A program made the position numbers and the translations under genes. Of a stretch of DNA of 46,137 nucleotides, positions 8,771 through 12,680 are shown piece by piece. The notes under the pieces are model-generated. The model saw only the letters and a list, made by a program, of their open reading frames with translations, searched no databases and was not told where the DNA came from. The stretch is from a virus. Position 1 is the stretch's first letter; the number at the start of each line of letters is the position of its first letter. The stretch is taken from positions 1 to 46,137 of IMG/VR virus record IMGVR_UViG_3300042294_003123. One strand, written 5' to 3'.

Positions 8771-8854
8771 GGAAAATGACCCTTGATGGTGATAGGGCTT
8801 GCCTGCTAAGCAATGTGTACCTTCGGGTATTTGGTTCGATTCCAACTTTTTCCG
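8771..8854 (+). tRNA. tRNA-Ser(GCT)
   Basis: Class II tRNA: acceptor GGAAAAT/TTTTTCC with one mismatch, anticodon loop CTGCTAA, variable arm with a CTTCGG loop, discriminator G. Confidence 0.9.
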
Positions 8855-9772: not shown

Positions 9773-9968
9773 ATGAAACATTCCTTACATAGGACGGATT
9801 AGCACCGTTGAAAGACAATCTTCGACTTTTGGGAGTAGCTACTCAATAAGATACATGGCTCGAAGTGTTATGTGATGGACCCTGCTCTGTGTGGCCACAC
9901 AACAGGTGAACAGTAAACTATGTTCAGTAAAATCTAAAACTACGGTGAGCGTAGAAGGATAGTTTCAT
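9773..9968 (+). ncRNA. Structured RNA candidate R2 (about 196 nt)
   Basis: Fills the gap between tRNA-Leu(TAG), ending 9769, and tRNA-Asn, starting 9972. The ends pair: ATGAAAC (9773-9779) with GTTTCAT (9962-9968), then after a 2x2 internal loop TCCTT (9782-9786) with AAGGA (9955-9959). Inside are ACGG/CCGT, CTTCGA/TCGAAG enclosing GAGTAGCTACTC, a hairpin around GTGTGGCCACAC closed by CCTG/CAGG, GAACA/TGTTC, and CTACG/CGTAG. There is no reading frame and no tRNA signature. T4 also carries stable non-tRNA RNAs (C and D) in its tRNA cluster; any sharing of function with those is unknown. Confidence 0.65.
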
Positions 9969-10214: not shown

Positions 10215-10285
10215 TACCCTCTCGTCTAACGGCAGGACAAGTGGTTTTGGACCACTGAATTGGAGTTCGAATCTCTGGGGGGTAA
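10215..10285 (+). tRNA. tRNA-Gln(TTG)
   Basis: Acceptor TACCCTC/GGGGGTA, anticodon stem AGTGG/CCACT with loop TTTTGGA, T-loop TTCGAAT. Confidence 0.92.
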
Positions 10286-10292
10286 CTAAAAT

Positions 10293-10365
10293 GGGCTGTT
10301 GGTATAGTTGGCTAACACGGTAGCTTTGCAAGCTTCAATCCCCAGTTCAAATCTGGGACGGTCCA
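10293..10365 (+). tRNA. tRNA-Ala(TGC)
   Basis: Acceptor GGGCTGT/ACGGTCC, anticodon loop TTTGCAA, T-stem CCCAG/CTGGG. Confidence 0.92.
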
Positions 10366-10373
10366 CAAAATTT

Positions 10374-10448
10374 GGTCTATTAGTGTAGTGGTTAACACGC
10401 CTCACTGTCTATGAGGTAGCCTCGGTTCGAATCCGTGATAGACCGCCA
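10374..10448 (+). tRNA. tRNA-Asp(GTC), 3' CCA encoded
   Basis: Perfect acceptor GGTCTAT/ATAGACC, anticodon stem CCTCA/TGAGG with loop CTGTCTA, discriminator G followed by encoded CCA. Confidence 0.94.
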
Positions 10449-10575
10449 AAAGAAAAAGTAGTGAAGCTGTAATTAGGAAGTAGAGTGTATTAATTACCGA
10501 AAAAGGGTTTATAGTAGGTAGGCGTCACTTATTGCACCTAATCAGAAACCTTGAAAGACCCGAAACTTTTTCTTT
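10449..10575 (+). ncRNA. Structured RNA candidate R3 (about 127 nt)
   Basis: Starts at the base after the CCA of tRNA-Asp and ends 4 bases before tRNA-Ser. The ends form a perfect 11-bp stem, AAAGAAAAAGT (10449-10459) with ACTTTTTCTTT (10565-10575). Inside, GTAATTA pairs with TAATTAC (10469-10475 with 10491-10497), GGTTT with AAACC (10506-10510 with 10546-10550), and TAGGT with ACCTA (10515-10519 with 10536-10540). There is no coding frame and no T-loop. Flanking tRNA maturation would release it with near-precise ends. In size and setting it resembles the T4 stable RNAs C and D. Confidence 0.7.
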
Positions 10576-10579
10576 ATTC

Positions 10580-10666
10580 GGAAGTTTGGCAGAGCGGTCG
10601 ATCGCGCTAGTCTTGAAAACTAGAGATGTTGAAAGGCATCCGGGGGTTCGAATCCCTCAACTTCCG
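10580..10666 (+). tRNA. tRNA-Ser(TGA)
   Basis: Class II tRNA: perfect acceptor GGAAGTT/AACTTCC, anticodon stem CTAGT/ACTAG with loop CTTGAAA, long variable arm, discriminator G. Confidence 0.93.
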
Positions 10667-10774
10667 CACCTTAAAACCGATTCGGGTTCGTGAACAAAGG
10701 AGGCCTGCGACTTGAAATATAGACAAATCACGTTAAATCTCCTCACACTAGGTGGTATCGGTGACCTAGTATTT
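10667..10774 (+). ncRNA. Structured RNA candidate R4 (about 108 nt)
   Basis: The gap between tRNA-Ser(TGA) and tRNA-Arg(TCT). AGGAG (10698-10702) can pair with CTCCT (10739-10743), and ACTAGGT (10747-10753) pairs perfectly with ACCTAGT (10764-10770). ACCGAT near 10676 could pair with ATCGGT near 10757 as an alternative. No closing stem as clear as in R2 or R3, so this is the weaker case. Confidence 0.4.
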
Positions 10775-10846: not shown

Positions 10847-10853
10847 CAAAAAA

Positions 10854-10920
10854 GGATACTTACAGCAATTTTTAACTATCAAATTTGTAACTTGACTCAG
10901 TAAAAACAGTATCCTGTAAC
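10854..10920 (+). ncRNA. Tandem hairpin RNA A
   Basis: GGATACT (10854-10860) pairs with AGTATCC (10908-10914). The 5' strand is followed by TACAGCAATTTTTAAC and the 3' strand by TGTAAC. TTACAG next to the 5' strand is complementary to CTGTAA after the 3' strand, so a pseudoknot is possible. Elements B and C share the layout. It lies upstream of the Ro-like gene. Confidence 0.6.
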
Positions 10921-10927
10921 TTATTAA

Positions 10928-10990
10928 GGGCTTCTAACAGCAAATAAAAAATACTCAGACTGCAAATCCGATTAAAAAAACAGAAGCCCG
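10928..10990 (+). ncRNA. Tandem hairpin RNA B
   Basis: GGGCTTCT (10928-10935) pairs with AGAAGCCC (10982-10989), 8 bp with stem bases unlike A and C, followed by AACAGCAAAT and, before the 3' strand, an A-run; then GTAAA. It is the same architecture with a different stem, which argues for a conserved RNA structure. Confidence 0.6.
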
Positions 10991-11018
10991 TAAATTTTAA
11001 AAAAATTTTCAATATAAC

Positions 11019-11048
11019 TTGGTTATTTTGAAAAAAGTTATTATATTT
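11019..11048 (+). promoter_or_regulatory. Promoter between hairpin RNAs B and C
   Basis: TTGG 11019-11022, TATATT 11042-11047, spacer 19. It would transcribe hairpins C and D and the Ro-like gene as one unit. Confidence 0.7.
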
Positions 11049-11069
11049 ATAATATTAAGAAATTAAAAA

Positions 11070-11128
11070 GGATTCAGACAGCAATTTTCAACAATTTCAT
11101 TAGGACGAAAAAAACGGAATCCTGTAAC
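11070..11128 (+). ncRNA. Tandem hairpin RNA C
   Basis: GGATTC (11070-11075) pairs with GAATCC (11117-11122). ACAGCAATTTTCAAC after the 5' strand matches element A nearly base for base, as does TGTAACTTCTTGAGGG after the 3' strand. Confidence 0.6.
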
Positions 11129-11131
11129 TTC

Positions 11132-11255
11132 TTGAGGGAATGAGTACATCCAGCAATTATTATTACTTATACATAATAATTCGAAACTAACACCTCAGTC
11201 ATCGACTCCCCTAGCCGATGCCGTACTCAGTAGATCCCCTCAAACATTGGCTAGG
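11132..11255 (+). ncRNA. Four-helix RNA D upstream of the Ro-like gene
   Basis: TTGAGGG (11132-11138) pairs with CCCTCAA (11237-11243), TGAGTAC (11141-11147) with GTACTCA (11223-11229), AATTATTAT (11155-11163) with ATAATAATT (11173-11181), and CATCG (11200-11204) with CGATG (11216-11220). CCTAGCC in the last loop is complementary to GGCTAGG at 11249-11255, giving a pseudoknot or a switch. It contains CAGCAA at the position seen in hairpins A to C. It may be a larger relative of them or a 5' regulatory element of the gene 49 bases downstream. Confidence 0.65.
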
Positions 11256-11303: not shown

Positions 11304-12680
11304 ATGAGTAATTTAATTAACGCAATGAGACAAAAAGATGCCTTAACTGCTAACGGCGCTTTGACTAACTCTACTTCGTTGAATGCGGTTGTAGACATGT
11401 TCTTTTTAGCAGGTGCTTCTCGTAGAATGTCAGAACAAGAAATCATTAATGTGTTTGTAAAAGCATATAATGAAGATCCTAACTTGGCTGTAAAATGTCT
11501 GTTTTGGGCTCGTGACGTTAGAGGTGGTGCTGGTGAACGTAGGTTCTTCCAAATCATCATGAAATATATTAGCGAAAACTACCCATCTGTTTTTGAATTT
11601 AATATTCGTTTAACTCCAGAATATGGTTATTGGAAAGATGTTTTTAATGTCTTAAATCCAAACAGAACTGTTTTAGATTGGATGTCAGAACAATTGAATG
11701 ATTCTAATAGTGGATTGATTGCTAAGTGGTTTCCACGTAGAGGTGTTTGGTTCTCTTCAATGCATAAACATTTGGGAATGACTCCAAAACAATTTCGTAA
11801 AATGATTGTGGAAAAAACTAAAGTTGTTGAAACTTCTATGTGTAATAAAGAATGGGATGCTATCGAGTATTCTAAAATTCCTTCACAAGCTTTTCAAAAA
11901 TACAAAAGAGCATTTTCAAGAAATGATGAATCTAGGTTCAAAGATTTTATAAGTGCTGTTGTAAAAGGTGAAGCTAAAGTTAATTCAGGAACTTTATTTC
12001 CATATCAATTATATCAATCTTACATTAGAGGACTAGATAAAAATTCAGTGCTTGCACAATGGATTAATCTACCTGATTATGTAGGTGAGGGATCATTTTT
12101 ACCAGTTTGTGATGTTTCTGGTTCAATGAATGGTTTACCAATGGAAATATCTGTTTCTTTAGGTGTATACTTGTCAGAAAGAAATAAATCAGCATTTAAA
12201 GATGCCTTTATTACCTTCTCAGAATCTCCAAGATTACAATATTTAAAAGGTAATGTAGTTGAAAGATTTAGTCAATTAGCTAATGCTGATTGGGGTATGA
12301 GTACTAATTTACAATCTGTATTTGATCTAGTATTAAATAAAGCAATTGAAAATAGATTAGCTCAATCCGATTTGCCAGAAACTATTTTGATTATTTCTGA
12401 TATGGAATTTAATTATGCTTGTGGAAATAAAACTAATTTTGAAGTAATTCAAGATAAGTTTGAAGCCGCTGGTTATAAAATGCCAAAATTAGCTTTTTGG
12501 AATGTAAATGGAAGAGAAGGTAACGTACCAGTATCCGCAAATACTAAAGATGTTGCCTTAATTTCAGGAGCTTCACCATCAATCGTTAAAAACGTTTTGT
12601 CAGGTAAAGATTTTACTCCAAAAGGTATCATGTTGGAAACTCTATTGAGTGAAAGATATGAAAAAATTATGGCTCTTTAA
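11304..12680 (+). CDS. Ro60-like protein (DUF2828, TROVE-like plus vWA)
   Basis: A 458-residue protein with an N-terminal helical-repeat region (about 1-250) that includes the ARDVRGGAGERR segment typical of DUF2828, and a C-terminal von Willebrand A domain with an intact metal site: Asp270-Val-Ser272-Gly-Ser274, Thr334 and Asp366. This order is that of Ro60/TROVE proteins, ring-shaped RNA chaperones that bind misfolded RNA ends and Y RNAs. Placement at the end of a tRNA and ncRNA island, behind four structured RNAs, fits an RNA-handling role (inference). The leader is A-rich without a Shine-Dalgarno. The stop codon lies in the loop of a terminator just before tRNA-Met. Confidence 0.8.
   Translation: MSNLINAMRQKDALTANGALTNSTSLNAVVDMFFLAGASRRMSEQEIINVFVKAYNEDPNLAVKCLFWARDVRGGAGERRFFQIIMKYISENYPSVFEFNIRLTPEYGYWKDVFNVLNPNRTVLDWMSEQLNDSNSGLIAKWFPRRGVWFSSMHKHLGMTPKQFRKMIVEKTKVVETSMCNKEWDAIEYSKIPSQAFQKYKRAFSRNDESRFKDFISAVVKGEAKVNSGTLFPYQLYQSYIRGLDKNSVLAQWINLPDYVGEGSFLPVCDVSGSMNGLPMEISVSLGVYLSERNKSAFKDAFITFSESPRLQYLKGNVVERFSQLANADWGMSTNLQSVFDLVLNKAIENRLAQSDLPETILIISDMEFNYACGNKTNFEVIQDKFEAAGYKMPKLAFWNVNGREGNVPVSANTKDVALISGASPSIVKNVLSGKDFTPKGIMLETLLSERYEKIMAL

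Follow-up and report, generated by a model that had tools for sequence, protein, structure and literature searches.

The nearest described counterparts of the RNA analysed here are the phage tRNA-island RNAs of unknown function, namely T4 RNAC and RNAD, GOLLD and ROOL. RNAC and RNAD are small stable RNAs lying beside phage tRNAs (PMC9697503), and GOLLD and ROOL are structured non-coding RNAs of phages and prophages, often near tRNA islands (PMC12286853); no function is known for any of them. The HDV-like theta ribozymes, small pseudoknotted RNAs, also abut phage tRNAs (PMC10879173). As to strand order, a 2023 paper gives natural circular permutation, processed cases aside, only for the hammerhead and twister ribozymes, 5S rRNA and group II introns (PMC10085705).

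The DNA under study (the window), a 46,137-base virus record, has about 24 tRNA genes on the plus strand. One spacer in this array holds R3 (Table 1), which differs from each of the systems above. GOLLD is often longer than 800 nt, and GOLLD and ROOL form cages, whereas R3 has 127 nt and another core; neither GOLLD (RF02032) nor ROOL was matched in the window at the gathering threshold or within 10430–10600 at E-values up to 5. The same two Rfam searches returned no known family at R3, and neither ARAGORN nor Rfam gave a tRNA, tmRNA or YrlA match there. T4 RNAC and RNAD were rejected as relatives, the core motif being absent by inspection and our covariance model R1 (see below) giving no match in the whole T4 record. 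An HDV-like (theta) fold, defined by a nested double pseudoknot with internal pairing of the 5′ helix, was likewise rejected: in 27 homologs the first helix of R3 is formed between the two ends of the RNA, the strands follow another order than in HDV-like ribozymes, and no HDV model matched. Hammerhead and twister have natural permuted forms, as does the R3 family, but R3 has no Rfam match and its core sequence is unrelated to theirs.

Location of R3 in the tRNA array

A first-pass annotation, made from the sequence of the window without database searches, had described a structured RNA closed by a perfect 11-bp stem that starts at the first base after the CCA of tRNA-Asp and ends four bases before tRNA-Ser. 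Both borders were confirmed, the four bases being 10576–10579. Between 7000 and 13000, this stem is the sole fully complementary inverted repeat reported at spans up to 400 nt. Model R1 matches 10449–10574 at 150 bits, the window itself being a member of the model, and has no second match in the window. R3 is thus distinct from the spacer named R2, as had been proposed; R2 contains the Rfam RNA freshwater-1.

Table 1. Positions in the window of R3, its parts and the flanking tRNA genes.
Feature	Position	Strand	Basis
R3 RNA, R-form (A-B-C order), 127 nt	10449..10575	+	homolog comparison; model R1 match
tRNA-Asp (GUC), encoded CCA at 10446-10448, directly 5′ of R3	10374..10448	+	
tRNA-Ser (UGA), 4 nt 3′ of R3	10580..10667	+	
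P1 closing helix, 5′ strand (pairs with 10565-10575)	10449..10459	+	homologs
P1 closing helix, 3′ strand	10565..10575	+	homologs
P3 5′ strand CUG (pairs with CAG 10543-10545)	10467..10469	+	
P2 5′ strand AUUAGG, 3′ of UA bulge 10470-10471 (pairs with 10537-10542)	10472..10477	+	
P4 5′ strand GAGUG (pairs with CACUU 10526-10530), R3-type only	10483..10487	+	
Pa 5′ strand (pairs with 10517-10521)	10494..10498	+	
Conserved 18-nt loop GAAAAA-GGGUUU-AUAGUA; PK5 = 10505-10510	10499..10516	+	
P2 3′ strand CCUAAU and P3 3′ strand CAG	10537..10545	+	
Pseudoknot strand PK3 AAACCU (pairs with 10505-10510)	10546..10551	+	
Conserved strand UGAAAGACCC	10552..10561	+	

Freshwater-1 (RF02979) lies in the same tRNA array as R3 and is a separate RNA, its model matching at 9871–9932 only (at 72.9 bits, marginally over the cut-off), in the spacer from tRNA-Leu to tRNA-Asn; in the relatives L006 and L007 it is found between tRNA-Met and tRNA-Gln instead. 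It was reportedly described in a 2017 paper. Other features of the array were noted in passing. A weak tRNA match at 8772–8853 (30.6 bits, cut-off 29) was not reported by ARAGORN. The 107-nt spacer from tRNA-Ser to tRNA-Arg (10668–10774), possibly another RNA, is present in the window, L001 and L002 and absent from L003–L006. Upstream of the DUF2828/DUF7788 gene, 10849–11160 comprises three units of about 55–75 nt, with a possible fourth at about 11133, laid out as a GG-stem, ACAGCAA, a further stretch, a stem-CC and UGUAACUU or CGUAAAUUU. Similar units occur in L001, L003, L005, L006 and L020, and their stems covary (GGATAC/GTATCC, GGATGC/GCATCC); they may be partner RNAs of the DUF2828/DUF7788 protein or repeats resembling type III antitoxins.

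Distribution and packing of the family

Close relatives were reached through the adjacent TROVE-like gene. R3 lies between tRNA-Asp and tRNA-Ser in L001, L004, L005, L006 and L007, and is kept in L005 and L006 though the flanking tRNA-Asp and tRNA-Ser genes are quite different (L005:356–650, L006:5150–5445). Unrelated sequence between the same two tRNAs, which the first-pass annotation would have counted against a stable RNA, was not found in these relatives; instead, the near-identical phage L002 is cleanly devoid of R3, with 99.1% identity over 5.3 kb up to 10451 and resumption at 10575. In L002 at least, the phage can therefore dispense with R3.

When viral contigs were scanned with a single 16-mer taken from mid-R3, 33 loci were obtained, and 31 of these had the whole element. 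The family, here named tRNA-island pseudoknot RNA, was then extended by looser patterns, a genome scan and BLAST against phage records. Carriers include Vibrio phage KVP40 and relatives, Pectobacterium PM2 and Escherichia phage mogra (all Straboviridae), Proteus PM135 (Demerecviridae), Bacillus Eldridge (Herelleviridae), Cellulophaga phi14:2 (Crassvirales) and Klebsiella RaK2 (Alcyoneusvirus), as well as Klebsiella KP13-26, Erwinia pEp_SNUABM_01 and DSS3_MAL1. The mogra copy has the strand order of R3, occupies about 100444–100545 of MN850579 and is flanked by tRNA-Met and tRNA-Arg. The core, consisting of the 18-nt loop, the pseudoknot, P3 and P2, is thus common to T4-like, T5-like, Herelleviridae, crAss-like and jumbo phages. 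A few bacterial assemblies also carry the RNA and may be viral contigs; no match was obtained in 5,426 E. coli genomes or in 72,556 plasmid records. Model R1, built from an alignment of sequences in the strand order of R3 (A3, see below), gave one match each in 18 of the 20 records searched, including phages outside the model (E-values 1.3e-12 for RaK2, 7.9e-11 for PM135, 2.0e-10 for PM2 and 9.1e-7 for mogra). KVP40, which has the other strand order, was missed by this model, as expected. At gathering and lax thresholds alike, Rfam returned no known family at the family elements. No paper with the conserved sequence or a description of the family came up in a literature search that lay mostly outside subscription journals and preprints, and, judging by the accessible sources, the family appears not to have been described.

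Two records showed further features. Contig L037 has two copies, the one at 10260–10398 being diverged and lying beside an R3-type copy. About 1.1 kb of DSS3_MAL1 (L252:1–1110) contains a tmRNA along with the family RNA and, at a place separate from the latter, a match below threshold to the GOLLD 3′ part.

The packing between tRNAs is tight. In all 25 R-form copies that abut an upstream tRNA, the distance from the upstream tRNA end to P1 is −1 to 2 nt, and in 29 of 30 R-form cases the downstream tRNA follows P1 after 2–6 nt. The upstream tRNAs have seven identities and encode CCA in 8 of the 25 cases; abutment on an encoded CCA, as first described, hence holds for the window and fails as a general rule. 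All 625 tRNAs within 4 kb of a copy are co-oriented with it. The position in the array varies from start to middle to end, and none of the copies listed falls within an ORF that reaches 100 aa. Because some copies in the other strand order have a downstream ORF within 50 nt, these may play a role in cis. In copies with no tRNA downstream, P1 continues into a U-tract (L086, L097, L105) or almost does (L168), and in L137 and L203 a U-tract comes after P2, as would be expected of an independent RNA that has a 3′ end of its own.

Fold and circular strand orders

Folded alone, R3 was no more stable than random expectation (z −1.13, with 29 of 200 shuffles folding equally well), and with a z of −1.1 single-sequence folding was discarded as evidence; the window alone would be a weak case for R3. 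In the minimum-free-energy fold, the inner helices measure 8, 7 and 5+3 bp. Across 27 homologs, the 8-bp and 5+3-bp helices showed no double compensatory changes and shuffle-like scores and were rejected. Of the three inner helices of this single-sequence fold, two were thereby refuted and the 7-bp one proved real, corresponding to the pseudoknot GGGUUU/AAACCU; the inner helices as first drawn were not confirmed.

The comparative analysis was based on alignment A3, comprising 27 R3-type sequences, with P1, P3/P2, P4, Pa and the pseudoknot as the structure scored. Paired cells amounted to 96.4%, as against 86.4% in shuffled and at most 54.4% in slid alignments, double compensatory changes occurred at 21 of 36 pairs, and the covariation score was 0.349 (0.167 shuffled, at most 0.120 slid). 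RNAalifold, which is unable to draw pseudoknots, independently recovered the nested helices. The proposed check for covariation across related phages therefore came out far above both controls, and on this comparative evidence the fold of R3 exceeds chance.

In this conserved fold, the closing helix P1 joins the ends of the RNA, and the conserved inner helices are P3 and P2 (3+6 bp), P4 (5 bp) and Pa (4–5 bp). Pa carries the 18-nt loop GAAAAA-[PK5]-RUAGUA, of which PK5 pairs with the strand just 3′ of P2/P3. P1 has double changes at 11 of 11 pairs, with 91.9% of cells paired in A3, and the lengths of its strands vary in step in L004 and L005. P2/P3 is paired in every A3 cell, P2 (100%) showing A-U/G-C exchanges, and across the family P3 is found as CUG/CAG, CUC/GAG, CUU/AAG, UUG/CAA and CAG/CUG. 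P4 is paired in 97.8% of A3 cells, its variation being mostly one-sided or absent, and Pa has double changes at pairs 2 and 3 counted from the loop. The pseudoknot is paired in 99.4% of A3 cells and is exchanged for AGCATT/AATGCT in KVP40 and GGGCCT/AGGCCC in DSS3_MAL1. Since ACCC is kept in both of these phages despite the changed PK5, it was rejected as an alternative partner of PK5.

The strands of the core can be divided into three blocks: A, the CUG-UA-P2 strand; B, Pa with the 18-nt loop; and C, the P2 strand-CAG-PK3-UG..ACCC. R3 has the order A-B-C. In other phages the blocks run B-C-A, and P1 then takes the form of a hairpin that lies between ACCC and CUG, as is clear in L088, L137 and L203. 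R3 carries the 18-nt loop, PK5/PK3, P3, P2 and UG..ACCC that, in A-B-C or B-C-A order, define membership of the family. A core finder that required some pairing returned 42 distinct A-B-C and 36 distinct B-C-A cores. Common to both orders are the loop and both types of junction (the UA bulge, or UUAG opposite AAAC); Pa is varied in both, and P3 and the pseudoknot show the same kinds of compensatory variants in a set that includes 20 hand-read members. Such shared variants and a shared loop are what one fold, circularly permuted, would predict. The third order, C-A-B, was not seen among 130 loops without a downstream PK3, in searches biased towards the two known orders.

Most copies were located by patterns in the loop and Pa region and then accepted on pairing; for this reason, the invariance of the loop and the P2, P3 and pseudoknot pairing in the core-finder set are partly built in. 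P1 played no part in the selection, the phages found by BLAST are also independent of the core finder, and in the 31 loci obtained with the 16-mer the P2, P3 and pseudoknot strands were likewise unused. Conservation in many unrelated phages, covarying helices and the packing rule strongly support a distinct structured RNA that fits between the tRNAs, as the first-pass annotation had suggested.

Possible functions and their significance

R3 is probably a non-coding RNA gene of a widespread phage family, released by tRNA processing and acting in trans. For its course from transcription to a host target we infer the following. R3 would be transcribed together with the tRNAs and set free by RNase P at the downstream tRNA and by 3′-end maturation of the upstream one, whereupon the closing helix would shield it. 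Action in trans would most likely consist in showing the invariant loop and the ACCC strand to a host protein or RNP that is widely conserved. The core stays constant where the end positions shift, so that function is expected to reside there rather than in the ends or in neighbouring genes.

The tight fit between tRNAs, and an intergenic position in phage operons that is sometimes followed by U-tracts, would also suit a cis element of the tRNA transcript, i.e. a rigid insulator or exonuclease barrier without function in trans that would affect how neighbouring tRNAs and mRNAs are processed or how stable they are; nucleases can stall at pseudoknotted folds. Such a barrier, however, would have no need of a conserved 18-nt loop that recurs in phages across many families. 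In most records there is a single copy rather than one for every spacer, and the position in the array ranges from first to last, which makes this explanation unlikely. R3 might otherwise represent a self-cleaving ribozyme of a new class, by which the tRNA precursor is cut, given the pseudoknotted core, the rarity of natural circular permutation outside RNAs such as hammerhead and twister (PMC10085705) and the theta ribozymes that adjoin phage tRNAs (PMC10879173). Yet the two orders put different parts of the core at the tRNA junction, while the closing helix lies directly 3′ of the tRNA in both (R-forms; KVP40); a passive boundary is therefore expected there, not one cleavage site. With a strand order unlike that of HDV-like ribozymes and no match to Rfam ribozyme models, we consider cleavage quite improbable.

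Two further explanations concern regulation of the array and the gene downstream of it. The structured core looks like that of a ligand-binding RNA, and long untranslated arrays may need guarding from termination, but a riboswitch or RNA antiterminator of the tRNA array is very unlikely: many copies are followed by tRNAs with no single downstream gene family, copies occur at the start, middle or end of the array, and in several the closing helix ends in a terminator-like U-tract. The antiterminator in particular was rejected, the array position being too variable. Finally, the gene for the TROVE-like (DUF2828/DUF7788) protein (11304–12680) lies 0.7 kb downstream of R3 and adjoins the tRNA array in relatives L001–L007, which might point to R3 as a Y-RNA-like partner of this protein. 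However, in many phages with the RNA the stretch read lacks this gene, model R1 has no match in L008–L010, which carry the gene but are distant, and R3 itself does not match YrlA, so that such a partnership is hardly credible.

A non-coding RNA freed from the tRNA transcript and acting in trans is hence the reading we prefer, and the first-pass proposal of a stable RNA maturing alongside the tRNAs would fit it. It is possible, if doubtful, that the family is a new naturally circularly permuted class of RNA, either catalytic or a general phage effector (e.g. one that serves as decoy or inhibitor against a conserved host RNP or against tRNA-directed defence), common to the T4-like, T5-like, Herelleviridae, crAss-like and jumbo phages.

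The structured RNAs of phage tRNA islands, RNAC and RNAD, GOLLD and ROOL, have so far been without explanation. The present family is small and is found in phages of laboratory hosts, such as Escherichia phage mogra (recorded host K-12 MG1655) and Vibrio phage KVP40, and its covariation-defined fold in two circular orders points experimenters to the working core. As the 2023 list is limited to hammerhead, twister, 5S rRNA and group II introns (PMC10085705), a further naturally permuted RNA family would be notable in itself.
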